Shown: piece after piece, positions 921-23,504 of the stretch
Numbering within the stretch: the first letter of the stretch is position 1
How the letters are laid out: every line of letters begins with the position of its first letter
Origin: a virus
IMG/VR virus record: IMGVR_UViG_3300002835_010611
Location: 1-24,899 of that record
Length of the DNA: 24,899 bases
Direction: 5' to 3' (one strand)
The notes under the pieces: generated by a model
Seen by the model: only the letters and a program-made list of their open reading frames with translations
Told to the model about the DNA's origin: nothing
Database searches by the model: none
Position numbers and translations under genes: made by a program

Positions 921-979
921 AAACTGCTTACGGGTGAGAGATTCGATACTACTGAGTGTTGTGGCAGTAGTGAAATCTT

Positions 980-2744: not shown

Positions 2745-2746
2745 AG

Positions 2747-2823: not shown

Positions 2824-2827
2824 TGAA

Positions 2828-2875: not shown

Positions 2876-2879
2876 ATCC

Positions 2880-3113: not shown

Positions 3114-3261
3114 GATTTTCCCTCTTTCGGATGTTTCTTGTCCCATCAATATAAATGCTCACGGGTAATAAATCAACCCCAAAACAATGTTGACAAAATA
3201 AAATCTGACCTGTACAGTTCCATCAACCCAATAAAACAGAGCTACATAGAAAAGGAAACAT

Positions 3262-3974: not shown

Positions 3975-3975
3975 C

Positions 3976-4404: not shown

Positions 4405-4431
4405 GCATCATAAGCAATCAAGAATAGGACT

Positions 4432-8640: not shown

Positions 8641-8654
8641 GAACGCAAAGAGTA

Positions 8655-9221: not shown

Positions 9222-9223
9222 TT

Positions 9224-10243: not shown

Positions 10244-10255
10244 TTTTCCTCCACC

Positions 10256-10284
10256 CAATTATCCCACAGCATTACTTTAGTCAA
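10256..10284 (-). promoter_or_regulatory. Promoter for the DUF932-primase operon
   Basis: On the minus strand TTGACT (plus positions 10279-10284) and TAATTG (10256-10261) are 17 bases apart. A better -10 match, GATAAT (10258-10263), would give a 15-base spacer. It overlaps the divergent promoter at 10290-10318 in a shared regulatory gap, so the two directions may be co-regulated. Confidence 0.5.
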
Positions 10285-10289
10285 AATAC

Positions 10290-10318
10290 TTGCAATTATT
10301 AAAAAGTGGCTGTATTCT
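10290..10318 (+). promoter_or_regulatory. Promoter giving a leaderless message
   Basis: TTGCAA at 10290-10295 and TATTCT at 10313-10318 are 17 bases apart. The -10 box ends six bases before the ATG at 10325, so transcription probably begins at or next to the start codon. No Shine-Dalgarno precedes that ATG. Confidence 0.6.
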
Positions 10319-10324
10319 TTTGTC

Positions 10325-10984
10325 ATGACAACAACTTACTCCCCAAAAACCCAAGAATTCCTCACTAGCTTTTCCGACCAGGCTATCCAAATGATGATGA
10401 TGACAAAGCTCATGGGTAGCAAGATTGAGAAAGGCCCAGTAGACACCCCATCTGTGCTCTTTTATGCAGTTCCGGGAAAAGACAACCCCCTCGAAGAGGA
10501 AGTTGGAGTTGTTGAGATTAACCCGGACGACGGGGCACCCGCAGACCACATTTTCAACTGGCTCATTGGCGTATACAAGGATGTTTCCGTTGCCCCAATA
10601 TGGGGAGGAATCATTTCTGATGTCGTAGCCCATTGTGGGAGCAAAAGCGAACACGACACCGTTGAGCAAATGAATGACATTAAGAGCAGGTACCCAGGAA
10701 AGAACCTGCAACAGATTTTTAACGAGAATCCGCTTGAGAGCTCGCTGACTGAAGGCTTGACAACAATCATTTTTGACAGCTACGGGAACTTCGCCACCAA
10801 TCTCACAACCTATAAGTATTCCGACGAGGGAACCCCTGTTTTTACTTTCAGCAAAAGCGAATTTATTGGTTCAATGTTTGGCGATAATGCTGAGTCTTAC
10901 TCAAATCAAAAACTGACCTCACAAATTCAAGCTTTTATCATTGCGGTTGAAGTTTCGGAAAGCATCAAATCAAATGGAGAATAA
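10325..10984 (+). CDS. Hypothetical protein, 219 aa
   Basis: Unknown family. The start at 10325 (MTTTYSPKTQEFL) is chosen because of the leaderless promoter signal; the open frame extends upstream to 10235 but would run across the promoter. A methionine-rich helix (AIQMMMMTKLMG), a strand-rich middle (PSVLFYAVPGK, EVGVVEINPDD), PAD(H) and Asp-rich turns are visible. There are no membrane segments. It overlaps the next gene by 11 bases and begins a three-gene plus-strand operon. Confidence 0.7.
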   Translation: MTTTYSPKTQEFLTSFSDQAIQMMMMTKLMGSKIEKGPVDTPSVLFYAVPGKDNPLEEEVGVVEINPDDGAPADHIFNWLIGVYKDVSVAPIWGGIISDVVAHCGSKSEHDTVEQMNDIKSRYPGKNLQQIFNENPLESSLTEGLTTIIFDSYGNFATNLTTYKYSDEGTPVFTFSKSEFIGSMFGDNAESYSNQKLTSQIQAFIIAVEVSESIKSNGE

Positions 10985-11195
10985 CGAAGCGTACATGGAG
11001 TCGGTTCTTGCTCAATCAGCACATGTCTTGCGACGTGTTGCCGTTATCCGAGACCACGGGTTCACATTTGATTCAGAAACATCAACTCTCTTGGACCAAA
11101 CATTGGAACTTATTGATGAAATTTCAGAAAATGAAAGCAAAAAGTGGGGATTCACACCAGGACCATCATGCGATGGATACCCAGGTAAGCGATGA
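10974..11195 (+). CDS. Small helical hypothetical protein, 73 aa
   Basis: Mostly helical (QSAHVLRRVAVIRDHG and LLDQTLELIDEISENESKK) with a short Gly/Pro-rich end (GFTPGPSCDGYPGKR). Family unknown. The ATG at 10974 overlaps the previous stop; ATG at 10995 with GGAGA upstream is an alternative. Its stop overlaps the next start (ATGA). Confidence 0.6.
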   Translation: MENNEAYMESVLAQSAHVLRRVAVIRDHGFTFDSETSTLLDQTLELIDEISENESKKWGFTPGPSCDGYPGKR

Positions 11196-11524
11196 TATTT
11201 TCATTTGAATTCAACTTGTCTAAGCTGCAGGCAGAACTCATGACCGAAGCGCTTCTAGGAATGATTAATACGGGTAAACGCCTAGCTGCATCATTGGATG
11301 AAGAAGGTGGCTTGCGCACTCATCTGAACGGCCGGAATTTGAGCGAAAACGAAGTATCCCAGTTAATTCTTGCTTTTCAGCAGGCTAACTCAATACTCGG
11401 AGAGATTGAACAAATTGAAGAAGAAGAGAATAAAGCTGAAGCAAAGAAAAGTGTTTCTGGAGTGATTGACGATATTTATGAAATGCTTCAATCATCAGAA
11501 AACCCTCCACCTTTCAATCTGTAA
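11192..11524 (+). CDS. Coiled-coil hypothetical protein, 110 aa
   Basis: The first half has an amphipathic helix (LSKLQAELMTEALLGMI) and the second an acidic coiled coil (NSILGEIEQIEEEENKAEAKK). It is translationally coupled to the upstream gene through ATGA. It converges with the minus-strand gene ending at 11488, overlapping by 37 bases. No function can be assigned. Confidence 0.6.
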   Translation: MIFSFEFNLSKLQAELMTEALLGMINTGKRLAASLDEEGGLRTHLNGRNLSENEVSQLILAFQQANSILGEIEQIEEEENKAEAKKSVSGVIDDIYEMLQSSENPPPFNL

Positions 11525-11898
11525 ACTCCGTTCTCTAAATCGCTGCTTAAATATTCCCTCCATCTAACACTGAACTCTGCATGAGTCTCATTGTCTTTGG
11601 GTGAATAATCAAATGCGGTGTTGGCTTCCTTGAGTTTTACTTTTTCATCATTGATAATTCCGTGTTTTGAATAAAGGTCAGACAATGCGTCGTTGGGCGA
11701 ATCACCAACACCAATCATCTTTGCTTCTTCTGAATCCCAAAAATCTAATGCATCACAGTCATCGCCTGATATGTAATTAGATAAACCTTCAGATTCCTCT
11801 GAATAATCTGCAATTGCAAACCACTTGCCACCTTCGTAAACGCCCGAATAACGTGATTCCCTTATCACTACTGGGTAAAGGGATATTGCATCACTCAT
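11488..11898 (-). CDS. Hypothetical acidic protein, 136 aa
   Basis: The start MSDAISLYPVVIRES at 11898 overlaps the thioredoxin stop by eight bases (ATGAGTGA), so it is coupled to thioredoxin. The sequence resembles small HicB-like or DUF1902-like beta-alpha folds: a VVIRES strand, YSGVYEGGKWFAIADY strand pair, then a helix (SPNDALSDLYSKHG). That is a weak resemblance only. It is rich in Asp and Glu. Confidence 0.6.
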   Translation of the reverse strand: MSDAISLYPVVIRESRYSGVYEGGKWFAIADYSEESEGLSNYISGDDCDALDFWDSEEAKMIGVGDSPNDALSDLYSKHGIINDEKVKLKEANTAFDYSPKDNETHAEFSVRWREYLSSDLENGVYRLKGGGFSDD

Positions 11899-12229
11899 CT
11901 TCGTATGATTCAGCTGATAAAACTTTCTCGAGTTCCGTAACAATAAAGTCCGGTCCAGCAGCTCCGACTATCGTTGAGACGACTTCTCCGTCAGCAAATA
12001 TCAGAAGTGTTGGAATACTCATAACATTGAACCGTTGTGCCAACGCTCTGTTCTTATCAACATCAGATTTAACAAATCGTATTATTCCTTCGTATGCGGT
12101 ACTGAGCTCCTCTAGGAGTGGGGTCATGTATTGGCACGGCCCGCACCATGTGGCCCATATGTCAAGGACCATGGGGGTTCCGCTCTCCGCTAGAACTGAA
12201 TCAAATTCGTCTTGGGTTATTTCTCTCAT
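11891..12229 (-). CDS. trxA: Thioredoxin, 112 aa
   Basis: A classic thioredoxin fold: MVLDIWATWCGPCQYMTPLL holds the redox-active WCGPC. The conserved cis-Pro is in SIPTLLIF, preceded by VKSDVDKN and followed by the glycine-rich GAAGPDF. It reduces disulphides in the cytoplasm; in phages it can also serve as a polymerase processivity factor or regenerate ribonucleotide reductase. There is no signal peptide. The ATG at 12229 is preferred over upstream starts because TACAAT (12236-12241 on minus) lies six bases upstream, as in a leaderless message. Confidence 0.93.
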   Translation of the reverse strand: MREITQDEFDSVLAESGTPMVLDIWATWCGPCQYMTPLLEELSTAYEGIIRFVKSDVDKNRALAQRFNVMSIPTLLIFADGEVVSTIVGAAGPDFIVTELEKVLSAESYEDE

Positions 12230-12235
12230 ATGTCC

Positions 12236-12263
12236 ATTGTATTCCCTATTTGTCCACCCACAA
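12236..12263 (-). promoter_or_regulatory. Leaderless promoter of thioredoxin
   Basis: On the minus strand a TTGTGG-like -35, a 16-base spacer and TACAAT (12236-12241) are followed after six bases by the thioredoxin ATG. There is no Shine-Dalgarno. It is another instance of the -10-to-ATG spacing seen at 10325. Confidence 0.45.
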
Positions 12264-12334
12264 ATATGCCTTGCGGGTTGCAACTGGCTAGGTGGGTGGC
12301 TATATTGACTGAACACCCATATTAAAGGAGCTTT

Positions 12335-12565
12335 ATGATTTACTCAGGCGATAACTGGCGCTCATCACGGGCGTGTATTGATGCCAGCACACTTACCTTT
12401 TTCCCTAGCAGCCGAAAGGTGCGATTACAGGCTCTTGCCTATTGTGGAATTTGTCTTGTTCGTGGTGAGTGTCTCAAGTATGCTCTTGATAATTCAATTG
12501 AGTTTGGAATCTACGGAGGAAAGACTGAAGACGAACGAAAGGTTATCTTGCGTCGCAGGCAATGA
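12335..12565 (+). CDS. WhiB-family Fe-S transcription factor (second), 76 aa
   Basis: A compact Wbl protein. The cluster ligands are C14 (SSRACIDAS), C37, C40 (CGIC) and C46, followed by the conserved turn FGIYGGKTEDERK and a basic tail RRRQ that may contact DNA. It probably modulates the host sigma factor region 4, as Wbl proteins do. AAAGGAG precedes the ATG. The stop overlaps the SNF2 start (ATGA), so the two are translated together. It differs strongly from the longer WhiB at 8287-8640. Confidence 0.93.
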   Translation: MIYSGDNWRSSRACIDASTLTFFPSSRKVRLQALAYCGICLVRGECLKYALDNSIEFGIYGGKTEDERKVILRRRQ

Positions 12566-14499
12566 ACGAAAAAAGACTCTGGCTAAATGACGACCATCTA
12601 ATAATCGACTTTCCATACGACCCAGATGAGGTCGCAGCGATTAAAAAGATACCTGGGGCTAAGTGGGACAAGCTTGCCCATGTTTGGCGTGCTCCCGCTA
12701 CGAGCCTTTCGCAGGTTCGGGATTTTGCGATACTTCATGACTTTGAAGTAGATACATCCATAATGCTATTTGATGAGCCAAAACGACTAAACAAGTCATT
12801 TGGTATGTGGAGCGACGATAGCTGGATTTATCTTGGCTTTAACTACGACCAGGTAAAAGTTCGTTCGGTTAAGCAGCTTCCCGGTGTTACATGGGATTCA
12901 AAATCAAAAGCCTGGAAAGTCCCCAGAACGGCAGTTCGTGAAGCAATTCAATGGGCGACAATGTTCAAGATGGATGTATCAGCAGAACTTCATCTTGACG
13001 CAGAAGAGTTTGCTGAAGTTAGCAGAAAACGAGCAGATGCATCACGCGCTTACAGTGCAGAAATAGAAATACCGAACATTTCTGGTTCTCTTCTTCCATA
13101 CCAAATGGCTGGAGTGTCGTATGCACATCAGACTAGAAGGTGCTTCATTGCTGATGACATGGGTCTGGGTAAGACTCTTCAAGCCCTAGCAACACTCGAG
13201 TACTGTGCGTCTCTTGGAGAAGATGTTTATCCAGCAATAGTTATGTGTCCATCAAACCTTGTCCTTAACTGGAAGTCAGAAGTCGAAAAGTGGACACCAT
13301 CCAGGACCGCTACTGTCGTAACAGACCGTTCTGATTTTCCTGAAGAAGAACACGACATAATCGTAATTGGCTATGCAAACATTCATCACTGGGTCAAAAG
13401 CCTCAAGGGATACAAGTCATTGATATGCGATGAATCTCACTACCTAAAAACTCCAACTGCCCAGCGCACCAAAGCAGCTATAAAGATTTCAAAAACCATT
13501 AAGTCTGGAGTTGTTTTGTGTCTTACTGGCACGCCTGTCACTAATAGGCCTGCTGAGTATGCAAGCCAACTGGAGATAATCGGCCGTCTCAATGAGCTTG
13601 GTGGCACATGGGGCTTCTATAGGCGCTACTGCGGAGCATTCAAGGACAAGTGGGGCCACTGGAACACATCTGGGGCGACAAACCTTCAGGAGCTGAACGA
13701 GATACTTCGTTCTCTTTGTTATATACGTAGGACAAAAGAACAGGTTCTTCCGGAACTTCCAGATGTCATACACGATAGACATATGGTGAGCCTTTCAGAA
13801 AAACACAAACTAGAGTACAAAAAAGCAGAAGACGACATAGTCGAGTACCTTGTGCAGCGCGCAAAAGAAATTGCTCTAGAAATTGGCAAATCTCCACATT
13901 CGGCTGCAGTTGTTGCACGCATAAAAGCTGAATCAAATGTCCACCTTGTAAAGCTGTCCGTGCTACGCCGGCTGGCTGCTAAGGGCAAGATGGAATCAAT
14001 TAAGGAGTGGGTTAAAAACCAGATTGAAGCCGGCGAAAAAGTTGTAATTGCCGCACACCATAGAGATGTTGTTGATGCCTTAGCAAATGAGTTTGGTGGA
14101 TTAAAAATTCAGGGTGGCATGGATGTACACGAAGTTGAAAAAGCAAAGAAAGACTTTCAAAACTTGTCTACGGAAGAAGCTCCTGTAATAGTTCTATCTA
14201 TGCAAGCTGCAAAAACCGGACACACACTTACGGCAGCTCAGAAAGTTCTGTTCGTGGAGCTCCCATGGACGCCAGCTGATGTTGACCAGCTCTACAGTCG
14301 ATGTCACAGGCTTGGACAAAAAGGTTCAGTAATGGTTACCTACGCAATAGCTACGGGCACTGTTGATGAACAAATCTACGACCTAATTCAATCAAAGCGC
14401 TCAATAGTAAATGCTGCCGTTGATGGTTCAGACATTTCTTCTGATGATTCTTCAAGCAGGCTTGTACTTGACTACCTAAAACAAGGGCTTAATCGTTAA
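12562..14499 (+). CDS. SNF2-family helicase/ATPase with N-terminal HARP-like repeats, 645 aa
   Basis: A DNA-dependent ATPase that translocates on duplex DNA. Two HARP-like repeats sit at the N-terminus (FPYDPDEVAAIKKIPGAKWD and FNYDQVKVRSVKQLPGVTWD), as in annealing helicases of the SMARCAL1 type. The motor follows: motif I GLGKT at 201-205, motif II DESH at 290-293, LTGTP near 326, and C-terminal SRCHRLGQKGSV with a following VDEQIYDLI. In a phage it probably remodels forks or anneals strands. Its end overlaps a small minus-strand gene by 11 bases. Confidence 0.92.
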   Translation: MNEKRLWLNDDHLIIDFPYDPDEVAAIKKIPGAKWDKLAHVWRAPATSLSQVRDFAILHDFEVDTSIMLFDEPKRLNKSFGMWSDDSWIYLGFNYDQVKVRSVKQLPGVTWDSKSKAWKVPRTAVREAIQWATMFKMDVSAELHLDAEEFAEVSRKRADASRAYSAEIEIPNISGSLLPYQMAGVSYAHQTRRCFIADDMGLGKTLQALATLEYCASLGEDVYPAIVMCPSNLVLNWKSEVEKWTPSRTATVVTDRSDFPEEEHDIIVIGYANIHHWVKSLKGYKSLICDESHYLKTPTAQRTKAAIKISKTIKSGVVLCLTGTPVTNRPAEYASQLEIIGRLNELGGTWGFYRRYCGAFKDKWGHWNTSGATNLQELNEILRSLCYIRRTKEQVLPELPDVIHDRHMVSLSEKHKLEYKKAEDDIVEYLVQRAKEIALEIGKSPHSAAVVARIKAESNVHLVKLSVLRRLAAKGKMESIKEWVKNQIEAGEKVVIAAHHRDVVDALANEFGGLKIQGGMDVHEVEKAKKDFQNLSTEEAPVIVLSMQAAKTGHTLTAAQKVLFVELPWTPADVDQLYSRCHRLGQKGSVMVTYAIATGTVDEQIYDLIQSKRSIVNAAVDGSDISSDDSSSRLVLDYLKQGLNR

Positions 14500-14647
14500 T
14501 AACCTTTAAGCACTCTTTGCAGGTAACAAAAGATTTGTTTGCTGTAACATAATATGAGCCATCATCAAGACCGCAAGAGGTGAGGTAGAAACTAAGACCG
14601 TGCCATCCGTTGCTGTAGTGAACAACTTTAATTTCTTGCTCGCTCAC
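14489..14647 (-). CDS. Small Cys-containing protein, 52 aa, GTG start
   Basis: This short gene fills the 150-base gap after the SNF2 helicase. The product begins with GTG (VSEQEIKVVHYSNGWHG) and ends TCKECLKVIND. C25 with C43 and C46 could form a small zinc ribbon (GLSFYLTSCGL, then TCKEC). The GTG is two bases after the stop of the DUF1599-like gene, and GGAG overlaps that stop, so it is the last gene of the SSB operon. The family is unknown. Confidence 0.7.
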   Translation of the reverse strand: MSEQEIKVVHYSNGWHGLSFYLTSCGLDDGSYYVTANKSFVTCKECLKVIND

Positions 14648-14649
14648 TA

Positions 14650-15189
14650 CTACTCCAGGCTAAGTAAGAATGTTCCCGATTCCCACATGATTCCAATTGC
14701 TGAGTAACCAATTACATCCATCACATTGTCCTTGATTGATTCGTTGTTGGGGTTTGTATTATTGCCAACAAGATTTTCAAGTCTCGCAATCTTGTCGTGA
14801 ACCCTAACCATCAATCCAGCTCTACCAAATCGCTGAATGTTCTCGTGGCCATAATCATGTTGTTTTCTGCACAAAGTTTCGTGCACTTCAGGTGATGTCA
14901 AATTAAAACCAAGAGAGCGTGAGAGCATGCTGGCAAGCCTTCCAATCCCCCTCCATGCCTGTGAGGCATCTTTTGCTTCGTGATGAAACATGTCATCTAT
15001 AAACACGTCGTGTGAAACTCGGAGCATCTTGATAATGGGCATACTCGCATCTTCAAAAGATGCAATAATCTTCAAGATGCTGTCCCAGGCCAGGTCTTGT
15101 TCTTCTTCTGGCGGGAGTATCTTACTCAACGCAATTGCGGCGGCGGCATTCCATGTTTTTGGTGTTTCTTTATACATTTGCTCAGTCAT
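14650..15189 (-). CDS. DUF1599/Nmad1-like nucleotide-associated protein, 179 aa
   Basis: Residues 106-152 contain CRKQHDYGHENIQRFG, RAGLMVRVHDKIARLENL and NESIKDNVMDVIGYS. This HDYG...RFG...DKIARL...DVIGY arrangement marks the DUF1599 domain, linked to phage nucleotide modification and all-alpha NTP pyrophosphohydrolases. The acidic and His residues (H111, D112, E149, D153) could bind a metal and nucleotide. The adjacent methyltransferase and SSB support a nucleic-acid metabolism role. It starts by overlapping the methyltransferase stop by eight bases. Confidence 0.72.
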   Translation of the reverse strand: MTEQMYKETPKTWNAAAAIALSKILPPEEEQDLAWDSILKIIASFEDASMPIIKMLRVSHDVFIDDMFHHEAKDASQAWRGIGRLASMLSRSLGFNLTSPEVHETLCRKQHDYGHENIQRFGRAGLMVRVHDKIARLENLVGNNTNPNNESIKDNVMDVIGYSAIGIMWESGTFLLSLE

Positions 15190-16675
15190 TTAATAATCCT
15201 TTGAAGATTTTTCCAAGCCATTCGGCTACGGGTGCAGCCACTCCATTCCCGGTCTGCTTGTACCTAGCTGTATCGGGTTGTTCTTTGCCATCCGCACGCC
15301 ACCTAGTGTGGTCCACGGGCCAGCCCATCAAAATTTCACACTCTTTTGGTAATAAACGCCTAACTACCATGTTCTGCAACACTCCGGTTGACTGTTTTGT
15401 CCCCGCCCTAATTGCATGATGAATGCCACCATCAACAAGCTTGTCATTGTATTCATCGTAAGCAATTGCGTCAATCACTAGATTTTCACCTCGGCTCGAT
15501 GGTACGCCGCCGTCACCACCACTACGAAGTGTCATTGCAACCCCATCATTGAGCTCTTCCATTTGAGCAACCATTGGTGTGTTTAGTCCACCCGTTCCCA
15601 TGAATGCAGTCAATGTGTTGATGGTGTCACCCTGTAGTCGTACGCCATCTTGTCTGTGTGGGTGAAAGACTATTGGTGAGTTTTCATCTTCATAGGCGAC
15701 ACTTGGTGACTGTTGCGTAGCTTTAAGTGTTGGTGAGTGGTCTGTAAAAACATTTGCATTTGAACCGAACTGTGTATCAAAAGAAAAAACTTGATTGTCT
15801 TCAACAATTAATTTATCTTCGGCAACATACTGAGTGCCAACACCCCTCCAGTCTCTAGCTTGCAGTGTCCCTATGACATCTTGATATGAATCTGTTGTGG
15901 TTTCAATACTGTCAGTTAGTATGGTGCCTGGGCCTTTTGCATCACGGGCACGCAATGTTAGAGCGGTGTCTGTTTCTTGCCATTTAGCAAAACCGCTATT
16001 CTCGTATGCTAGGACTCCCTGTTCGCTACTGCTTCCAATGCTTGACGAAGCTTTTCCGGAAGCTTTTTGTTTCTCCTGTCGGCCCTTCTGAGAATGCCTT
16101 CGCACGCCCTCTTGGACAGGTAATAGCGGGATGGGACTTCGCTCTGCGGCACCAATATCGTATGTAGCACACACGAAGATGCGGCGCCGTCGCTGGGCGA
16201 CTCCGTAGTACTGAGCATCAAGGATTGCCCAGTCAAGCGCCACGCACCCTGATTTGGCCATTTCATCGAGGACGACCCCAAAGTCAGCACCCTTGTTGGA
16301 AGTAAGTGCTCCGGGAACGTTTTCCCAGATTGCGAGTCGTGGGTATTGTCCATTTGTTGCATCACGCATCTCCTTGATTATTCTCATTGCTTCATGGAAC
16401 AAACCAGAGCGTGCACCATCAAGGCCTGCGCGTTTGCCGGCCACGGAGAGGTCCTGACACGGACTTCCAAAGTTAATGCAGTCAACTGGTTCTATCTCGT
16501 TGCCCTTTACATCCCTGACATCTAAGTACTTGGGGATGTCGGGCCAGTGCTTGCTGAGTATTCGCTGACATGCAGGGTCCCACTCAGCTTGCCATTTGCA
16601 CTGCCATCCGGCAGCTTCGAATCCAAGGTCGAAGCCGCCGACGCCGGCAAATAGACTGCCGAAGGTAAGGCTCAG
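15182..16675 (-). CDS. C5-cytosine DNA methyltransferase, 497 aa, CTG start
   Basis: All key motifs are present when the frame is read from 16675: motif I FAGVGGFDLGFEAAGW (residues 9-24), catalytic Cys73 in GSPCQDLS, ENV at 118-120, QRRRR at 161-165, a long variable target-recognition region, then LLPKECEILMGWP and NGVAAPVAEWLGKIF. From an ATG/GTG only, the gene would begin at V78 and lose motif I and the catalytic Cys. No ATG, GTG or TTG lies upstream in frame, but CTG at 16675-16673 overlaps the SSB stop (CTGA) and has GAGGAAG upstream. The TRD has repeats like LRARDAKGPG and LQARDWRGVG. It modifies cytosine in DNA, probably to evade host restriction. Confidence 0.93.
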   Translation of the reverse strand: MSLTFGSLFAGVGGFDLGFEAAGWQCKWQAEWDPACQRILSKHWPDIPKYLDVRDVKGNEIEPVDCINFGSPCQDLSVAGKRAGLDGARSGLFHEAMRIIKEMRDATNGQYPRLAIWENVPGALTSNKGADFGVVLDEMAKSGCVALDWAILDAQYYGVAQRRRRIFVCATYDIGAAERSPIPLLPVQEGVRRHSQKGRQEKQKASGKASSSIGSSSEQGVLAYENSGFAKWQETDTALTLRARDAKGPGTILTDSIETTTDSYQDVIGTLQARDWRGVGTQYVAEDKLIVEDNQVFSFDTQFGSNANVFTDHSPTLKATQQSPSVAYEDENSPIVFHPHRQDGVRLQGDTINTLTAFMGTGGLNTPMVAQMEELNDGVAMTLRSGGDGGVPSSRGENLVIDAIAYDEYNDKLVDGGIHHAIRAGTKQSTGVLQNMVVRRLLPKECEILMGWPVDHTRWRADGKEQPDTARYKQTGNGVAAPVAEWLGKIFKGLLND

Positions 16676-17151
16676 AAAGGTTCTTCCTCAAATGAGCCAA
16701 CATCGTTTCGGCTGGTTGCTGGACGAGCGCCTGCTCGTGCTGGTGTTTTCTGTGCAGGACGAGCATTGACAGGGTTGCCTGAAGCATTCTCTACCTTTGC
16801 TTTGCGCTGCAATGTTTCAATGTTGCGTACAGATACGCCGATTTCGTCAGCAAGGATGTTCACTGCTGAACGCTTCTTTCCTGACTCTTTGTCGTCCCAT
16901 GTTTCTTGCTCAAGACGACCCGTGACTGTTACGCGAATTCCTTTTTCAAGCACTCGGGCTGCATCTTCTGCAAGGTTTCGCCATGCAATGACATTGAAGT
17001 AGGAAGTCTTTTCTTGCTTCTCGCCTTTTGCGTCGGTCCAGAAGTTGTTGACCGCAACAGAGAATGAAAGCTTCCCTGCTCCTGAGTCAAAATAACGCAT
17101 TTCTGGGTCCGCCGTGAGGTTTCCGGTTATTGTTACTGGCGCTGATGACAT
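16672..17151 (-). CDS. ssb: Single-stranded DNA-binding protein, 159 aa
   Basis: An OB-fold fills residues 1-105 (VTITGNLTADPEMRYF, KLSFSVAVNNFW, SYFNVIAWRNLAEDAA, GIRVTVTGRLEQETW). A flexible Pro/Ala/Arg-rich linker follows and the C-terminus is an acidic tip EEEPF, the standard interaction tail of SSBs. It coats single-stranded DNA during replication and recruits partners. AAGGAG precedes the ATG. It is first in an operon with the methyltransferase, DUF1599-like gene and the 52-aa gene. Confidence 0.95.
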   Translation of the reverse strand: MSSAPVTITGNLTADPEMRYFDSGAGKLSFSVAVNNFWTDAKGEKQEKTSYFNVIAWRNLAEDAARVLEKGIRVTVTGRLEQETWDDKESGKKRSAVNILADEIGVSVRNIETLQRKAKVENASGNPVNARPAQKTPARAGARPATSRNDVGSFEEEPF

Positions 17152-17193: not shown

Positions 17194-17222
17194 AGCATAT
17201 CACTCGTGGTAGGCTCTGTCAA
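17194..17222 (-). promoter_or_regulatory. Promoter of the SSB-methyltransferase operon
   Basis: On the minus strand, TTGACA (plus 17217-17222) and TATGCT (17194-17199) are exactly 17 bases apart, a near-ideal sigma70 promoter. The -35 box overlaps the start codon of the divergent gene at 17222 and its -10 region, so the two directions probably interfere. Confidence 0.8.
17207..17215 (+). promoter_or_regulatory. Extended -10 promoter, leaderless
   Basis: TGGTAGGCT at 17207-17215 fits an extended -10 element (TG, one base, TAGGCT), six bases before the ATG at 17222. No -35 match is seen 17 bases upstream. If functional it gives a leaderless message for the 72-aa gene and perhaps transcribes on into the repeat array. 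Confidence 0.4.
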
Positions 17223-17440
17223 TGGCCACTAACCCTTTTGAAATAAGGCTTTCGTTAACCAATGCGATTGCTAACTCGTTGTTTGACATTGCTTTTGATG
17301 AGAGCATATCGGACAAAGAGCTTGCGCAGCAACTTGAAGATTACAAAGATGTTGCATCAATGCTTCTTGAAGACCTCGGGTGCGAGGTCATTGAAATCAA
17401 AGACGGAAAGATGATTTGCTCCTTTAGTCCACAAAAATAA
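17222..17440 (+). CDS. Small hypothetical protein, 72 aa
   Basis: Helical, acidic protein (MATNPFEIRLSLTNAIANSL, FDIAFDESISDKELAQQLED) ending in a short strand pair (CEVIEIKDGKMICSF). Family unknown. Its importance is positional: it is the only gene between the SSB promoter and the 5.4-kb array, on the same strand as the array motif, and its stop is two bases before the first array copy. Whatever transcribes it could continue through the array. Confidence 0.65.
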   Translation: MATNPFEIRLSLTNAIANSLFDIAFDESISDKELAQQLEDYKDVASMLLEDLGCEVIEIKDGKMICSFSPQK

Positions 17441-17442
17441 CA

Positions 17443-17661
17443 CGGGACTAGTAAGTGACAGGAATAAATTGAAGCGCAGAAGGAGCGAAGCGACTGGTAT
17501 TCCAAGGAAATACGGAAGGCCCCATTTACTCCATTTACGAATGGCTGTAGGCCGAAGGCCGTAAGCCTGAAGAGCGAGCAGCGTTAAATGGATAAATGGA
17601 GGGAGTATTACTTTGGAATGCGAGCAAGCAATTTTGCCGTAGATTTTTATTCAAATATATT
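17443..17661 (+). ncRNA. Array unit 1, family A
   Basis: Shares with units 7 and 8 a GACTGGT block, ACGGAAG (17512-17518) and GGGAGTA (17601-17607). Between the last two, CCATTTACTCCATTTA pairs with TAAATGGATAAATGG downstream, and GGCC-GAA-GGCC makes an inner hairpin. Ends with the TATTCAA-type 3' segment. Confidence 0.65.
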
Positions 17662-17823
17662 CGGGACTAATAAACAGACTTAGCATTTGCGTGCAAGGTC
17701 GCGTGCTGCGTAGTTGTTTATGTCGTTGTGCACGGCTCAGCGTGCAAGCGAAGCGTCATAAGACATAACGACGAAGCATCTCGCGGACTGCATGCAATGC
17801 GATTGTTGTGATGAGACCCAACA
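17662..17823 (+). ncRNA. Array unit 2, family D
   Basis: Has the family D opening (AATAAACA...AGCATT) and ends in CATGCAATGCGATTG. Internal pairing: TTATGTC with GACATAA, and a perfect TGCACG/CGTGCA hairpin inside it. Confidence 0.6.
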
Positions 17824-17971
17824 CGGGACTAGTTAGTTCATAAACATACAAAGCGAGTTGTTGCTTTTAGGAGCGGAGCCTTAGCGAAGGTTTCCAGAGC
17901 GTAGCCTGGAATCTGAGCGGAGGCTAAGCGATGAAAAGAAACACGAGTGGGAACTGTGATTAGGCTTTCCT
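17824..17971 (+). ncRNA. Array unit 3, unassigned
   Basis: Contains adjacent hairpins CCTT-AGCG-AAGG and TTCCAG-AGCGTAGC-CTGGAA enclosed by complementary flanks (GCTTTTAGG..., ...GATGAAAAG). Ends with the TGTGATTAG-type 3' segment, as in units 24 and 27. Confidence 0.55.
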
Positions 17972-18140
17972 CGGGACTAAATACCTACCGGGAACAGACA
18001 GCGAAGTTACTTTCTTTTCGAGCGGTGCGAGAGCGAGAAGGTTCCAGAAGCGGAGTTATTTTGCGATTAAAGACTTTATGGGAACAAGCGAAGATGCGAG
18101 CGTTGAAGGACGAGAAGCTTGAATGTAAATAGTAAAACTT
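17972..18140 (+). ncRNA. Array unit 4, unassigned
   Basis: No clear relative in the array. A TTTCTTTTCGAGCGG stretch can pair imperfectly with GCGAGAAGG. Structure is weaker than in other units. Confidence 0.45.
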
Positions 18141-18298
18141 CGGGACTAGGGACTATTCAAGCGGTGAGTCGTTTGATGCGAGCAGTGAAGCGCAGTGTAC
18201 TTAAAGGATTTAAGAGCGGGATAACGAGCAGTCTGGAATTTCGAGCGTTCGCTGAGCGAGGAAAGAAGTACGAGCAAAAGTTGTGCTGTGAGCCTACT
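18141..18298 (+). ncRNA. Array unit 5, unassigned
   Basis: The motif is followed directly by a second GGACTA. Holds the hairpin CTTAAA-GGA-TTTAAG and a distant ACTT...AAGT pairing. No family assigned. Confidence 0.45.
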
Positions 18299-18472
18299 CG
18301 GGACTATGAAGTATGTTTTACAGTCCATGTTCAACAAACAAGCTTTATGAAGCGTCCGGAGCTGCTGAAGACTGGTGGTAGCTCTTTTGCGGACACCGTC
18401 GAGGCATCTCCAGGTAAGCGAGTATGCGATAACTTTTATTCGATTCATAGATAGTTTTTATTCAATACGACT
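18299..18472 (+). ncRNA. Array unit 6, unassigned
   Basis: GTCCG pairs with CGGAC and encloses GAGCT/AGCTC. Ends with two TTATTCRA-type segments before the boundary, the same 3' class as units 1, 14, 15 and 17. Confidence 0.55.
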
Positions 18473-18677
18473 CGGGACTTACATATAAAAGGATTGAAGC
18501 GTGAACGAGAAGGAGCGCAGCGACTGGTAATTTCGAGAAAAACGGAAGAGACTCTTTTCTCGTTTTCTGGGTGGCTGCAAGCCCCCCAAGCGATAGCGGG
18601 AAAAGGAAAAAGAGAGGGAGTATTTCGAGGAACTACGAGAGAGCGATTCATCCGGGGACTTTTCAACAAAACCATTA
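18473..18677 (+). ncRNA. Array unit 7, family A
   Basis: GACTGGT, ACGGAAG (18542-18548) and GGGAGTA (18616-18622) match units 1 and 8, but the enclosed helix is now CTCTTTTCTCGTTTTC paired with GGAAAAGGAAAAAGAG. An extra CCGGGGACT lies near its end (18652-18660). Confidence 0.65.
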
Positions 18678-18898
18678 CGGGACTAATAACCACAGGGTTA
18701 GGCGTGTGCCTGTTTTGAAAGGGAGAGAATCGACTGGTGGTTTTTAAAGTTTACGGAAGAGGCTCTTTTTTGTCTTTTTTGAGTGAGGTACGAGCAAAAG
18801 CGACGCTTTTTGGAGCGGTAAAAAGAAAAAAAGAGAGGGAGTAAAATTTAATAAACCATGAAAAACGGCACTGCCAGGAGTTGTTAGATAAATCAACA
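18678..18898 (+). ncRNA. Array unit 8, family A
   Basis: GACTGGT, ACGGAAG (18753-18759) and GGGAGTA (18837-18843) are kept while the helix is CTCTTTTTTGTC against AAAAAGAAAAAAAGAG. Ends with the GTTAGATAA-type 3' segment shared with unit 11. Confidence 0.65.
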
Positions 18899-19041
18899 CG
18901 GGACTAACTTCTATAAGCCAACAAGCATTGCGTCTTTCTGTTCGATGTGAATGAGCGTGCTGGTAACGAGGTACGAAGTTACGCAAAGCGAAAGAACAAC
19001 GAAAAAGAAAACGCATGCGGTAGCTTTTATTTGATACGACT
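18899..19041 (+). ncRNA. Array unit 9, family D
   Basis: Related to unit 13: CAAGCATTGC, GAGCGTGCTG, GTACGAAGTTACGCAAAGCGA and GCATGCGGT recur in order. GCGTCTTTC near the start pairs with GAAAACGC near the end. Confidence 0.65.
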
Positions 19042-19292
19042 CGGGACTTATGTGTACTAGGACTATTTGAAGAGTCGCAATAGCGACGAAGTGTTATTTC
19101 TTGGAACGATACGGAGCGAAGAAGGTATGCGTAGGGAAATGTGAAGCGACGGAGTGCGACAGCGCTTCGGCGCTAGCATAAGCGAAGTGACCTTCTTTTA
19201 GCGAGGTATTGTGTAAAGAAATACACGAGGTGCGTTGTGGCGAAGCAAATGTCCGGGATGTCGCAATCAAAGATAAACATCTACCAAAGTCT
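19042..19292 (+). ncRNA. Array unit 10, family B
   Basis: Close relative of unit 14. Features: GCGACGAAGTGTTATTT, helix AAGAAGGT/ACCTTCTT, an AGCGC-TTCG-GCGCT hairpin with a UUCG tetraloop, a GTGTA/TACAC hairpin, then CCGGGAT and ATAAACATCT before the boundary. Confidence 0.65.
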
Positions 19293-19447
19293 CGGGACTA
19301 AGTACCTAGGTTGTCGGGCTGCCGACACCTGATGAGGAAGCGTAATTTTCATGGCCCCTGGTGGCGGACACGGAATCATGTAATGATTTCGAGGTCTTCC
19401 GCCCCATGTTAAATTTGCTGGTGCCAAAGCTGTTAGATAAGTCTGCA
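19293..19447 (+). ncRNA. Array unit 11, family C
   Basis: Close relative of unit 16. A CGGAATCAT-GTA-ATGATTTCG hairpin sits inside GGCGGA/TCCGCC, followed by GCTGGTGCCAAAG and GTTAGATAAGTC. AGTC at the end can pair with GACT of the next motif. Confidence 0.65.
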
Positions 19448-19582
19448 CGGGACTAATAACCAAAAACAGTGAGCATTCCGAACGAAGCGACGTAGCCGCC
19501 GAGGCATCCCGTAGCTCGCGTAGGGAGCCTGGCGTCTACCGAGCAAGCGAGGAGGCGAGGAAAAGTCTCATGTTTGCCTACA
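19448..19582 (+). ncRNA. Array unit 12, family D
   Basis: Opens AATAACCAAAAACAGTGAGC then ATTCC. Nested helices GACG/CGTC, CGCC/GGCG and AGGC/GCCT plus CCC/GGG give a compact GC-rich fold. At 135 bp it is the shortest unit. Confidence 0.6.
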
Positions 19583-19722
19583 CGGGACTTATCTTTACAA
19601 ACGAGCAAGCATTGCATTTTCGTTCGACTCGGAGCGAGCGTGCTGTGACAAGGCACGAAGTCACGCAAAGCGAGCGTAGGTCGATAAGAAAATGTATGCG
19701 GTGAGTGAGTAGTAAATGAAAT
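19583..19722 (+). ncRNA. Array unit 13, family D
   Basis: Relative of unit 9 with GCATTTTC pairing to GAAAATGT, and GTTCGAC to GTCGATA, where unit 9 has different but still paired bases. Ends GTATGCGGT plus a variable tail. Confidence 0.65.
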
Positions 19723-19970
19723 CGGGACTTATGTGTAACAGGACTGTTCGACGAAATGGTTAGCGACGAAGTGTTATTTTTTGGAACAAAAAGAAGCGAG
19801 GAAGGTATGCGTAGGGTAATGCGAAGCAACGAAGTGCGACAGCAATTCGGCGCTAGCATAAGCGAAGCGACCTTTTGAGCGCACTTATTGTGCAGAAAAA
19901 TACACGAGAAGCGGTCCATGAGGCGAATATCCGGGATACCGAATTCATAGATAAATATCTATTCAAGTCT
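19723..19970 (+). ncRNA. Array unit 14, family B
   Basis: Relative of unit 10 along its whole length. The AAGGT/ACCTT helix is shortened and the UUCG hairpin stem has decayed (AGCAATTCGGCGCT), so either selection is relaxed or the fold differs. Ends ATCTATTCAAGTCT. Confidence 0.6.
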
Positions 19971-20198
19971 CGGGACTAGATAATGGTTTGATGGTTGAAA
20001 AACAATCACGCAAAATCAACTTAGACAGATAAGAGAATCTAGGTGATTCTGGCGAAGCGCATGCGTAGACATGAATCAACGGTTGCCGGGTTGAAAAGCG
20101 TAGGGTTGTTCGAGCCGAGCAGCGGTGAGAACACACGAGCGTTCAACTCGGCAAAGATTTGCTTATGTGGATAAGTTGGAACTCTATTCAAATATCCT
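19971..20198 (+). ncRNA. Array unit 15, unassigned
   Basis: A 13-base helix TTGCCGGGTTGAA with TTCAACTCGGCAA (one G-U) and a TGATTC/GAATCA hairpin. Ends CTATTCAAATATCCT. It separates the B and C members of the second D-B-C block. Confidence 0.6.
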
Positions 20199-20353
20199 CG
20201 GGACTTGATACCTTGAGATGTCAGGTTGTCGCGCCGAGATGCTAGGCGTATTTTTATGACCCCCCATGGTGCGGACACAAAATCATGTAATGATTTTGAG
20301 GTTGTCCGCCGTCATATAAATCGCTGGTGCCAAAGTTGTTAGGGGGGTTAGTA
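20199..20353 (+). ncRNA. Array unit 16, family C
   Basis: Relative of unit 11. The hairpin is AAAATCAT-GTA-ATGATTTT here, so the base of the stem has changed on both sides; the GTGCGGACA segment, GCTGGTGCCAAAG and GTTAGG follow. Confidence 0.65.
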
Positions 20354-20585
20354 CGGGACTTGATAGCGAAGATTTTGCAGCACGGCGGGCGTAGCGTGAC
20401 TTGAGTGCGAGCATCGCTGTAGCGGACCGGGTAAATCGACTGAAGCTAGTGAGTGAATTTTGTGTATACAAAATGATACGAGCGTTGCTGAGGGAGATTT
20501 CTCGGGTAGCGGAAGTGGGCGAGTGGCTCAGTCAAAGCGTAGAGCGTTTGTGCTGCAAATCTGGTAAGTTTTATTCAACTTGCTA
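20354..20585 (+). ncRNA. Array unit 17, with tRNA-like 3' part
   Basis: The last 78 bases (about 20508-20585) look like a degenerate tRNA: outer stem GTAGC/GCTAC, a D-arm-like GGCGAGTGGCTCAGTC, an anticodon-arm-like TTTG/CAAA with CTGCAAA (Cys-like GCA), and AAGTT/AACTT in the T-arm position. The anticodon stem pairs poorly, so I do not call a functional tRNA. Confidence 0.5.
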
Positions 20586-20744
20586 CGGGGCTAAATAACA
20601 AATTCAGGCGTTCGTTTCTTTCTGGGAACCAGAATAAGTGAGCAACGGTCAAGCCTCTTGACGAAGCGAAGTGGCTCGACAATTAATTGTTGCGGCGATT
20701 GCTAAAGGCATTAGCGATGACTAATCAATCACATGTTGGATAAT
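20586..20744 (+). ncRNA. Array unit 18, family E (forward)
   Basis: Begins with the variant CGGGGCTA. Its blocks GTTCGTT, CCAGAA, CAAGCC, TTGAC, GGCTCG, GACAATTAAT, CTAAAG and TTAGCG occur in the same order in the reverse complement of unit 19. Confidence 0.6.
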
Positions 20745-20889
20745 CGGGACTAGAGACTTTATACCGGGAAGCGCTAAGGTCTTTAGTGATTCGCAAGCAA
20801 TGATTAATTGTCGGGCGACGAGCCAGAAGTCAAGGGCTTGCCGTGGCGAGCGATTTCTGGAGAACAGAAGAACGAACATGGCAAATAAT
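20745..20889 (+). ncRNA. Array unit 19, family E (inverted)
   Basis: An inverted relative of unit 18, although both boundary motifs keep the standard orientation. Units 18 and 19 together can form a very long imperfect hairpin. Confidence 0.6.
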
Positions 20890-21052
20890 CGGGACTAGTA
20901 AGTTTTATCTTTTATCAATGAAAGTTAGTTGTCTCGACTGGAGCGGGGGTGCTGCGTAACATTAGTTCGGGATTCGGTTCTTCCGAATCAAGAACTATGT
21001 GGAGCATCACCTTAGCGAAGGAGAGTAACGGTAGTTGTCCAGTTACTATCCA
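20890..21052 (+). ncRNA. Array unit 20, unassigned
   Basis: Strong nested fold: GGTGCT with AGCATCACC, TAGTTC with GAACTA, and a perfect GATTCGG-TTCTT-CCGAATC hairpin at the tip, followed by CCTT-AGCG-AAGG and GTAAC/GTTAC hairpins. Confidence 0.65.
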
Positions 21053-21345
21053 CGGGACTAGCAACTAGCGATGTGATTTCTGAGTACAAACATTCAAAAG
21101 CGCAGTGAAGCATTTTCTGGATTGGAAGCATCACCAGGTACACGAAGGAGTGATGTTTGTGGTCGGGCTTGGCGAAATATCGAGCCCTCTCGATATGAGC
21201 TTGGTGGTTCGCAGAACTCACCAATCCGACAAGCAAACTGAAACGACTGAAGTGTCCGCAGTGATGGTGGAGAGACAGAATTGCGAACGAAGCGTTGAAT
21301 GTGGCGTACTCGGAACACAAGCGGTTACTTTTATTCGACACGACT
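21053..21345 (+). ncRNA. Array unit 21, family F
   Basis: Relative of unit 24. Contains ATATCGAG-CCCT-CTCGATAT (21177-21196) and the ten-pair helix 21201-21224 with GCA loop and bulged T that shows two compensatory changes against unit 24. Ends with ATTCGACACGACT. Confidence 0.7.
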
Positions 21346-21614
21346 CGGGACTAAGAAATAGAAATTATTGATACCGGAAAGTTATTTCATCCGAGGAAGC
21401 ACCCGTAGTGAGAAAACTGATGAGCACATTTATGGGCGAAATCGTTTTCGAACGGGGGGTGCTGAGCGGTGAATAACGTCAAGCGTAATAAGACCGAGGC
21501 AAAGCCGGAGCGCGGAACCCAGACGCAGCGAAGACGAAGGCGAGCAAAGTCTGGGCTGCGGGCGTAGGCAAAGGTGAGGTTGCAATGAAGCGGGGGCTGT
21601 CATCCGGCACGCCT
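21346..21614 (+). ncRNA. Array unit 22, family G
   Basis: Shares its 3' half with unit 27: GAACCCAGAC, GAAGACGAAG, AGTCTGGGCTGCG, GTGAGGTTGCAATGAAGCGG. CCCAGAC pairs with GTCTGGG. Confidence 0.6.
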
Positions 21615-21776
21615 CGGGACTAGTAAGCACAACCAGAGCATCTTTTCTGGAGCGATGAAGGGTGTAAGCGAAGACTCGCACGTGCGTGGGCAGCATGCCC
21701 GTGCGTGTGCGGGCGAAGCGCACGTCCTTCTGAGCATCAGAAAGTGCGTCTACCGAAGTTGTCTTCTTACCTAATA
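21615..21776 (+). ncRNA. Array unit 23, family D-like
   Basis: Opens AGTAAGCACAACCAGAGCAT. GAAGG pairs with CCTTC and encloses a GC-rich hairpin (GGGC-AGCAT-GCCC). Confidence 0.55.
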
Positions 21777-22067
21777 CGGGACTAGTGACTAGCGATATTT
21801 CTTTCTTTCTGCAAGGAAGCCGGCAAGCGAGCAGTTCCTGAATCGGAGCCATGGCTGAGGTGGACGAATGAGCGATGTTTGTTGTACGGGCTTGAATCAA
21901 TATCGAGTTGGCTCGATATGGATTTTGGCGATTCGCAGAATTCGCCAATCCGGGAAACAAACTGAAGCGATTGAAGTCACCGACGCTATGGCGGAGAGGC
22001 AGGATTGCGAACGAAGCGGGCTGTTTGCAGGAAGAAGAACGAGCGGGGATTGTGATTAGACACGGTT
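21777..22067 (+). ncRNA. Array unit 24, family F
   Basis: Relative of unit 21 along its length. Hairpin ATATCGAG-TTGG-CTCGATAT (21900-21919) and helix 21925-21948. Ends GGGGATTGTGATTAGACACG, the TGTGATTAG 3' class. Confidence 0.7.
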
Positions 22068-22230
22068 CGGGACTAATAAACACAACTTCGAGCATTTCTC
22101 TAGGAAAGTGGAGCGCGGGCGTAACTTCGGGGAACGCGGAAGTTCCTTCAAGTGACCCGAGTGGAGCCCGAGCGGTACTTTTCGGAGAATGCGGTAACCA
22201 AACAAATCACTAAGTCAATGTCATTAGGGT
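22068..22230 (+). ncRNA. Array unit 25, family D-like
   Basis: Opens AATAAACACAACTTCGAGC then ATTTC and ends GAGAATGCGGTAACC, the family D closing pair (AGCATT with AATGC). AACTTC/GAAGTT forms a hairpin inside. Confidence 0.6.
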
Positions 22231-22544
22231 CGGGACTAATTACCAATTGAGGTAAGTAAAAGCCATTTCATTGACTGAACAGCCGTTAGCGGAGCTTTCC
22301 CAGGCCGAGGCACGAGTGCCGGGAAGCGGAGCGGTCGGCTGGTGAAGTCATGAATGGATTTTCTGGTAGTGCGACATGGTGGCAGAGCACGGCGTAGAAG
22401 GCGAGTGGAGTACTTGCCGACGCGTGATAGCGCATCGGTGCACTGAATGAGCGCCGCTCGTCGGCTGCGAATTCGAGTGCATACGAAACGAGTCTGCGAA
22501 GCCTTGCGGTTGCCAACACAGAGCACGATAACTGTGATGATGGT
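22231..22544 (+). ncRNA. Array unit 26, unassigned
   Basis: The longest unit (314 bp). CAGCCG/CGGCTG encloses CTTTCCC/GGGAAG and a perfect GGCAC-GA-GTGCC hairpin. ATTAG before the motif can pair with CTAAT after the GGGA. Confidence 0.55.
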
Positions 22545-22818
22545 CGGGACTAGATAGTACTTACAGGTAATCAATAGTTCCGAGTATTGAGACACTTCAT
22601 CGCGTAGCCAGCACCGAAGCGGAAAAACTGCTTGTAGCGAAGCGCGCAAGCGTTTTGCAGCGGTGGTGCAGGCGGAGCGTGAATGTTGACAAAGCGAGAT
22701 AAGAACGAGCCGTGCGCAACGAGGAACCCAGGTGAAGCCAAGACGAAGTCTGGCGCAATCTGGGCTGCGAAGTGTAGCAAGTGCGAGGTTGCAATTGAGC
22801 GGGGATTGTGATTAGAGT
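22545..22818 (+). ncRNA. Array unit 27, family G
   Basis: Its 3' half matches unit 22 (GGAACCCAGG, AAGACGAAGTCTGG, ATCTGGGCTGCGAAG, GCGAGGTTGCAATTGAGCGG). GCACC/GGTGC and CTGC/GCAG close an inner domain. The last motif follows at 22819. Confidence 0.6.
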
Positions 22819-22889
22819 CGGGACTAAAGGATGTGCAGTTAGATGACCATTCGACCTATTAGTATTGCTTTCGCCGGGATGGAGTAAAA

Positions 22890-23123
22890 ATGATGCAGAA
22901 TGAAATGACTATGACACACAAGAAAACTAAACCGCAGTCCCGAACGGAACTCTGGCGTTGTCCTAATTGTGGCAATGAGCTTGTCGTTGGCGTGCCGGCT
23001 ATGCAAGCTGCTTGCAGCAATAAAGAAAAGCACACTTCAAGCACTGTCGAAATGGAATTGGTCCGTTCTTACTGGGACGAAAACATCAATGGCCGGAACG
23101 TCAAGCTGCATCAGCGCTCGTAA
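22890..23123 (+). CDS. Zinc-ribbon protein, 77 aa
   Basis: A WRCPNCGNELVVGVPAMQAACSNK segment (shown here as WRCPNCGNEL then AACSNK) with a downstream His gives a CxxC...C...H zinc ribbon of a kind frequent in actinobacteriophage proteins. The C-terminus is acidic then basic (MELVRSYWDE, NVKLHQRS). The ATG at 22890 has GATGGAG upstream. It is the first protein gene after the array and itself contains the complementary octamer AGTCCCGA at 22936-22943. Function unknown; nucleic-acid or protein contact is inferred. Confidence 0.7.
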   Translation: MMQNEMTMTHKKTKPQSRTELWRCPNCGNELVVGVPAMQAACSNKEKHTSSTVEMELVRSYWDENINGRNVKLHQRS

Positions 23124-23184
23124 GTCCCGACCTTCTCTCTCGCCCGTCGCCATCTAGGAAACCACCAGAAACCCAATCGGGACT
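23123..23184. other. Inverted pair of the array octamer
   Basis: AGTCCCGA at 23123-23130 overlaps the stop of the zinc-ribbon gene and TCGGGACT at 23177-23184 is its perfect complement. They can form an 8-bp hairpin stem, and AGTCCCGA can pair with each TCGGGACT boundary of the array. The rest of 23124-23219 shows no gene. Confidence 0.6.
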
Positions 23185-23219
23185 GCAATCCAGCCCAGCT
23201 GCTTCATCGACAACAAAAA

Positions 23220-23504
23220 GTGACGGTGGCGGATGACAAAAGTCACAAACCTTGTGGGTTGCAAGCCGCAAGTATTCTGGTTACTCTTCACTGCGTGCAA
23301 ACAAAGCGGATAGACCAGCTCCAGGTAGGGGACATCTTTACTTGGGCGTTTCACGAGCAATATCAGGTAACGGGCATCAAAGCATCAACGCGTAACAACG
23401 GCAGCACTTGGTTGCTCAGCTACATCGGTTTGGAAACCAAAACCGAAGTTCGAGACCGCAAGATGCCAAAAAAATCAATTTGCGAATTTATCAAAGGAGA
23501 ATAG
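23220..23504 (+). CDS. Hypothetical protein, up to 94 aa
   Basis: The conserved-looking core is IDQLQVGDIFTWAFHEQYQV followed by TGIKASTRNNGSTW, a small beta-rich domain. The start is uncertain: GTG at 23220 is the longest, and GTG at 23295 (VQTKRIDQLQ) would remove a poorly conserved-looking N-terminus. Neither has a clear Shine-Dalgarno. It ends just before the small gene at 23507, with AAAGGAG shared across the junction. Confidence 0.55.
   Translation: MTVADDKSHKPCGLQAASILVTLHCVQTKRIDQLQVGDIFTWAFHEQYQVTGIKASTRNNGSTWLLSYIGLETKTEVRDRKMPKKSICEFIKGE

Follow-up and report, generated by a model that had tools for sequence, protein, structure and literature searches.

We analyzed a 24,899-nt stretch of a virus, IMG/VR record IMGVR_UViG_3300002835_010611 (positions 1 to 24,899; hereafter the window), that carries an array of units separated by copies of one short motif. 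The array occupies positions 17443-22826 on the plus strand and consists of 28 same-strand boundary motifs of the type CGGGACT[A/T], which delimit 27 units (u01 to u27) of 135-314 bp. It is flanked on one side by ssb (16672-17151, minus strand) and a divergent gene of 72 amino acids (aa), here called the leader gene (17222-17440, plus strand), and on the other side by a gene of 77 aa (22890-23123). The stop codon of the leader gene lies 2 nt from the first motif. The 28th and last motif (22819-22826) lies 63 nt upstream of the 77-aa gene, and CGGGACT stands at this same position in the relatives L065, L069, L111 and L071. The array strand contains 29.6% G and 19.0% C, compared with 21.3% G and 23.8% C in bases 1-17000.

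Our recount of the motif agreed with a preliminary description of this DNA, which had reported the same 28 copies and 27 units. The copies comprise 21 instances of CGGGACTA, six of CGGGACTT and one of CGGGGCTA. With at most one mismatch allowed, the whole window contains 35 matches, far above shuffled sequences (n = 100; mean 10.0, maximum 20). Across eight related records, some of them near-copies of one another, 129 of the 131 exact copies of CGGGACTA fall in arrays, and the reversed pattern occurs seven times in total. The motif is nearly invariant across copies and its information reaches past the octamer, to about CGGGACTA....A.Y in the window; in the array of a cousin phage (L075), AGT is common at positions 11-13. 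The units had been described as not being copies of each other. This is true apart from six paralogous pairs detected by blastn: u01/u07, u09/u13, u10/u14, u11/u16, u21/u24 and u22/u27.

Judged by the conservation of its reading frames, the array is non-coding. None of the 22 open reading frames (ORFs) of at least 60 aa that overlap it is preserved over its full length, free of stops, in each of the four relatives (L065, L069, L111 and L071), although 10 are so preserved in the nearest one, L065. All nine neighbouring genes, by comparison, are open in the four relatives (at least 97% covered, no stop). This difference bears out the earlier statement that no motif copy lies in a convincing gene.

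We assessed conserved structure with RNAalifold on 21 unit families, using 20 column shuffles each. The families omitted u03, which has no ortholog, near-identical L065 copies in several families, and the L075 units, which blastn did not link to window units. The z-score was -5.0 or lower in 13 of the 21 families, and compensatory pairs exceeded all 20 shuffles in nine; compensatory counts were often similar on the opposite strand. Three alignments were compared with 500 shuffles and with slid versions of their structures. In alignment A2 (family 21/24), which includes u21 (21053-21345) and u24 (21777-22067), 97.8% of the cells are paired, and double changes occur at 26 of 73 pairs and in 86 cells (0/500 shuffles; slid versions, 1-4 pairs). 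Alignment A3 (family 10/14), which includes u10 (19042-19292) and u14 (19723-19970), has 96.5% of its cells paired and double changes at 19 of 77 pairs (0/500 shuffles; slid versions, 0-5 pairs). In alignment A4 (family 2; u02, 17662-17823) 95.6% of the cells are paired, with double changes at 7 of 49 pairs (14/500 shuffles) and in 17 cells (0/500; slid versions, 0-2 pairs). Further pair types were not above shuffles in A2 (472/500) or A4 (377/500). Compensatory changes beyond the controls, taken as the mark of a structured non-coding RNA, were found for all three of these families.

The structures of A2, A3 and A4 were derived from the same alignments on which they were tested, which favours those structures. 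In a less circular test, we folded the window unit alone and then scored the changes in its relatives. On the motif strand, 50.7% of 1613 changed cells were still paired, with 337 double changes, compared with 39.7% of 1440 cells and 287 double changes on the opposite strand. For 21 coding windows of the same phages, the corresponding values were 34.8% of 1054 cells and 37 double changes. The percentage kept paired is the fairer figure, because divergence raises the number of double changes in the families. The energy of the window unit was lower on the motif strand in all 21 families, a direction that base composition also favours.

Folding of single sequences, scored with 25 dinucleotide shuffles each, gave a mean z of -2.93 for the window units (19 of 27 below -2) and -3.85 for the L075 units (20 of 26), compared with -0.62 for coding windows (3 of 27). 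Taken together, the alignments show conserved helices in many units, backed by compensatory changes and most pronounced on the motif strand. The preliminary description had called all units structured. Covariation with controls and folding energies uphold this for many of them, and it does not hold for some, such as families 4, 5, 18 and 19.

The individual units, all on the plus strand, differ widely in this respect. Low alignment z-scores accompany compensatory pairs above all shuffles in u01 (17443-17661; family 1, z -8.1), u15 (19971-20198; z -6.0; 8 pairs, shuffle maximum 5), u17 (20354-20585; z -11.6; 7 pairs, maximum 2), u20 (20890-21052; z -7.3; 7 pairs, maximum 3), u22 (21346-21614; z -8.9; 15 pairs, maximum 13) and u27 (22545-22818; z -5.3; 5 pairs, maximum 4). 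Compensatory pairs do not exceed the shuffles in u09 (18899-19041; family z -6.1, single-sequence z -0.3), u25 (22068-22230; z -6.9), u26 (22231-22544; z -6.0), u23 (21615-21776; z -5.0) and u08 (18678-18898; z -2.6, single-sequence z -1.0). Family 9 also has u13 (19583-19722) as a member. For u11 (19293-19447), whose family 11 includes u16 (20199-20353), the z-scores are -2.1 in the alignment and -3.3 for the single sequence; they are -2.0 and -1.5 for u12 (19448-19582) and -2.8 and -1.0, a weak signal, for u06 (18299-18472). Two conserved units show no structure signal at all, u04 (17972-18140; z +1.2 and +1.0) and u05 (18141-18298; z 0.0 and +0.6). The same is true of u18 (20586-20744; z -1.4 and +0.2), and u19 (20745-20889) has no alignment signal (z -0.1) and a single-sequence z of -2.9. 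Finally, u03 (17824-17971; fold z -2.9) is found only in the window among the compared arrays, being wholly absent from L065 and L111, and u07 (18473-18677; single-sequence z -0.2) only in the window and L065.

The motif stands between these folds. Predicted pairs that enclose it are scarce (in the window, L111, L071 and L075, z lies between -3.1 and -3.9), so that, as modelled, CGGG(R)CUNNNNANY separates predicted folding domains. When the motif was paired with the sequence immediately upstream, few permutations reached as low an energy in L069 (10 of 2000) and L111 (31), and the energy was not below chance in the window (389), L071 (298), L065 (986) or L075 (1582). There are only hints of a mini-hairpin within the motif (R4-Y13, C5-N12, U6-A11): in the window clade, C5-N12 is paired in 32 of 90 copies, G at position 4 goes with C at position 13 in 6 of 7 copies, and A goes with U or C in 80 of 83. 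A promoter reading of the motif is not supported: sigma-70-like sites are no more common than expected by chance, and exact CGGGACTA hardly occurs outside the array.

Similar arrays occur in other phages. Fourteen IMG/VR contigs, identified by a pattern scan and an ssb search, carry this array in the corresponding position, complete or cut by the contig end, and several of them match the window unit lengths exactly. One of the 14 is G001 (loci L114, L115 and L122), a 173,962-nt record that is probably a complete genome because its ends overlap by 123 nt. It carries tRNA genes for Thr, Ser, Asn, Arg and Met, and one of its nine large proteins scanned matched PHROGs (tail proteins). In a cousin phage represented by two contigs (L075 and, in part, L074), with an SSB 72% identical, an array (28 motifs in L075) has the same place and orientation, and none of its units is joined to a window unit by blastn. 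On the opposite side of ssb from this array, L075 has ten tRNA genes (12399-14246). A third clade of four contigs (L182, L240, L245 and L248) has a two-unit array that follows a 148-aa ORF, with its start 3 nt past the stop codon, and this ORF itself contains one further motif copy; the L182 units have no blastn match to any unit of the other arrays.

Beyond these clades, no such array was seen in the more distant ssb relatives examined. Near the array position, tmRNA genes were found in L073 (9326-9697, by Rfam) and, by ARAGORN, in L077 (8367-8747), L079 (9214-9597) and L083 (9042-9425), the last three with the tag ANKQFALAA. The leader gene also has homologs next to ssb in 14 other loci that lack such an array, which rules it out as an array-specific partner. 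INPHARED phage records contained no match and no distant similarity to the window. One scan of cellular genomes (bacteria and archaea, 50 stretches) gave nothing clearly alike; its clusters of at least four motifs were mostly regular or short-period repeats, with a few uneven ones (for instance L207 and L232), as judged by spacing alone. Many other pattern-scan matches in IMG/VR were dropped because their motif copies recurred periodically, were spaced at multiples of 3, lay within long ORFs or formed clusters of too few copies. Scattered CGGGRCT without a tight array occurs on the reverse strand of L088, L091 and L093, with some copies apparently intergenic and four at shared spacing.

Apart from SSB, the proteins recognized in the window by a Pfam scan are WhiB, DUF932, an SNF2 helicase, a C5 methylase and a thioredoxin. 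Because WhiB is encoded, the host of the window phage is probably an actinobacterium. By eye, a second WhiB-like small protein lies at 12335-12565.

Comparison of the arrays shows that they differ by whole units. Orthologous units are mostly 72-100% identical, often across less than the full unit (blastn), and six whole-unit differences separate the compared arrays, involving u03, u07, u10 + u11, u17-u19, u22 and u09. Both breakpoints fall exactly at the motif for u03 (window compared with L111) and u17-u19 (L069 compared with L071), and within some 10 to 30 nt of it for u03 compared with L065, u10 + u11, and u09. The gap comes out split in the alignments of u07 and u22, which makes the place of the breakpoint ambiguous. 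The closest match of u22 in L111 is the last unit of that array, after u27, with alignment breakpoints inside the paralog u27. Unit families, the presence or absence of whole units and domain borders at the motif together support the modular, motif-bounded build that had been proposed.

We propose, with a probability of roughly 0.6, that the array is a polycistronic, modular set of about 20 families of distinct non-coding RNAs (27 units), many of them structured, in a probable actinophage, and that the motif acts at the RNA level as a boundary signal, probably for processing. A single transcript would run from the leader gene through the array; co-transcription is suggested by the near contact between the leader stop codon and the first motif. 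Within this RNA the motif would be read, most likely as a cut or recognition site that frees each unit. As 28 motifs bound 27 units, cutting would also free the upstream and downstream mRNAs, and the freed units would act separately as stable phage RNAs. Their role may be in host takeover or counter-defence, as decoys, inhibitors or regulators, a speculation prompted by units that turn over like accessory genes.

This fencepost layout is consistent with a processing signal, as are the position of the first motif directly behind a stop codon and the two-unit arrays of the third clade. The gap from stop codon to first motif is 2 nt in the seven window-clade arrays checked and 0 nt in L074/L075, and in the L182 group the first motif starts 3 nt past the stop codon. 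Of the four motif-bounded units of L182, three fold well (z -2.3, -4.9 and -3.7; the fourth, -1.0), and both stretches beyond a last motif do not (z -0.7 and +0.6).

Several observations weigh against our proposal. Compensatory pairs exceeded all shuffles in only nine of the 21 families, and the alignments of families 4, 5, 18 and 19 gave no structure signal (RNAalifold, 20 shuffles). The double-change counts are raised by the greater divergence of the families (mean identity 0.71-0.91, compared with 0.87 for the coding windows). Good folding is limited in L188 to one of the three motif-bounded units (z -3.1; the others, -0.2 and -0.8). The antisense strands of the units also score (mean z -2.01 in the window and -3.22 in L075), and for this reason we base the RNA reading on covariation and the strand difference and not on energy alone. 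The opposite strand also exceeds coding DNA in the kept-pairing test and shows the same border effect at the motif. The motif is predicted to be no more exposed than average (paired probability 0.76-0.87, compared with 0.77-0.81), and pairing of the motif into a terminal helix with the end of its unit (3' side) was ruled out, being no better than permuted pairings in six of six arrays. There are no promoter- or terminator-like sites above chance. A factor that reads the motif did not turn up, in work that included no systematic search for one.

The evidence was also weighed under other explanations. An unlikely one, though not far-fetched, is that the array gives one long uncut RNA with many folded domains, a scaffold or sponge in which a phage or host protein would bind at the repeated motif. 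A nearly invariant motif placed between domains would fit this, and the CGGGRCT core recurs in dispersed elements of these and other phages (see below), as expected of a protein-binding site. However, the gain and loss of entire units, and their differing sequences and folds, are easier to reconcile with separate RNAs than with one scaffold, and the first motif lies close behind a stop codon in three lineages.

We consider it improbable that the array is an integron-like cassette platform whose units are joined by DNA recombination at the motif, a reading under which the units may also be RNAs. In its favour, all six whole-unit differences map to the motif or its vicinity, with both breakpoints precisely at the motif in two cases, and the u22 family has another place in L111. 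The same pattern is predicted, however, by selection for intact units or by recombination between paralogous units. Moreover, the breakpoints of the L111 insertion lie inside paralogous units and those of u07 and u22 are ambiguous, no recombinase was found among the proteins scanned, and the unit signal is strand-biased, as for RNA.

Very improbable is a DNA-level element, such as single-stranded DNA hairpins used in replication or packaging. The array does adjoin ssb, and both strands fold better than coding DNA, but changes are kept paired more often on the motif strand. The energy is also lower there in every family, as expected for RNA because of G-U pairs (base composition again favours this direction). 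Furthermore, this phage type appears to need no array, because distant relatives share the layout of ssb and leader gene and lack one. That the array hides small proteins or is a decayed gene region is barely credible, since the overlapping ORFs, even those open in L065, are not kept in all four relatives as the neighbouring genes are.

We also compared the array with known systems. Rfam gave no gathering-score match in the window and none with an E-value up to 2 in 17300-23000. In six related loci, three of them with arrays (L114, L075 and L111), its only matches were tRNA and tmRNA. ARAGORN found no tRNA gene in the window. CRISPR arrays have near-identical repeats of about 20-50 nt and unique spacers of even length. 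The array has a similar repeat-spacer look, but its repeat core is 8 nt and its 'spacers' exceed 120 nt, many being structured, partly paralogous and conserved between genomes. With unit lengths of 135-314, it lacks the features of a CRISPR array, in line with the preliminary description, and there were no cas genes among the subset of ORFs scanned (10 window proteins with Pfam and 10 with PHROGs). Like integron cassettes, the units are modular, have a fixed joint and are present or absent as wholes. They differ in being non-coding, and CGGGACTA differs from the attC core; no integron integrase was found among the proteins scanned, and no dedicated attC search was made.

Among phage RNAs, the stable RNAs 1 and 2 of T4 are non-tRNA RNAs of unknown function cut from the polycistronic transcript of a tRNA operon. 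Compared by description, the units would likewise be stable non-tRNA phage RNAs from a polycistronic transcript, as predicted from sequence alone, but T4 has only two such RNAs and is not known to have a boundary-motif array. GOLLD and ROOL are reported to be large structured phage or prophage RNAs of unknown function, often near tRNA islands, and are single RNAs, one ROOL being of 659 nt and GOLLD often >800 nt (PMC12286853). The array resembles them in being phage-encoded and extensively structured, with tRNA genes in the related records G001 and L075 too. It differs in having 27 units, each 135-314 nt long, in the fixed motif at their boundaries and in the lack of a match in Rfam. Theta ribozymes are reported to cut often beside tRNAs in phages (PMC10879173). 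Like phage tRNA arrays, our array would line up distinct structured RNA genes within a large phage genome. It differs in that the window has no tRNA and no Rfam ribozyme match and the boundary is a short sequence motif. No Rfam ribozyme matched at the unit borders, with coverage of the theta class in Rfam unverified, and a ribozyme of an undescribed kind may be present.

In the literature, the words 'noncoding' and 'non-coding' are absent from the main text, as far as considered, of the COBRA paper on whiB-encoding actinophages (PMC10914622). No such array was described in the titles and abstract openings searched, a coverage that excluded most subscription literature and is not proof that none is in print. 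On sequence and description, no known kind of element considered appears to share the build of the array, and it fell into none of the known families tested.

A related element is dispersed downstream of the array and in other phages. Its layout is CGGG[AG]CT, often preceded by AG[TC]CCCG and followed by (T)GACGGTGGCG[GT]ATGA, so that it possibly ends at a start codon. The window copy (23123-23236, plus strand) has AGTCCCG at 23123-23129, CGGGACTG at 23178-23185 and GACGGTGGCGGATGA at 23222-23236, and shares the CGGGACT core. Further sites lie at 8457, 5878, 5626 and 5262 of L114 (minus strand) and 431, 648 and 1053 of L124, and the element is also present in L179, L182, L184, L188 and L189; L183 has 11 copies of CGGGRCT on one strand in 10.6 kb. 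No name for the element was found by a search at Rfam gathering scores, the only one made. Within 23220-23300, the GACGGTGGCGGATGA copy runs into a short ORF whose start is, by eye, similar in L114 and L069, and a terminator-like stem-loop lies at 23251-23272; the ORF is possibly a leader peptide before this stem-loop. Because the CGGGRCT core is common to the array motif and the dispersed element, our guess is that one factor reads both.

We tentatively extend our proposal of separate, processed RNAs to a cassette array of RNA genes, a version that we hold with less than even confidence. In it, up to 27 different structured RNAs per transcript of actinobacterial phages would each be headed by CGGG(R)CUNNNNANY, which one dedicated RNA-binding or RNA-cutting factor would read, the units would be swapped between phages as ready-made RNA effectors, and the core would also tag mRNAs of these phages. 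The motif array is a ready DNA signature for finding such arrays. If the proposal is true, one phage locus would encode about 20 unknown RNA families, many of them structured, and the question would be what the phage does with an interchangeable RNA library and which factor reads its common tag. Such a cassette array would correspond, for RNA, to an island of accessory genes, and as a viral genetic system it would be of a new kind.

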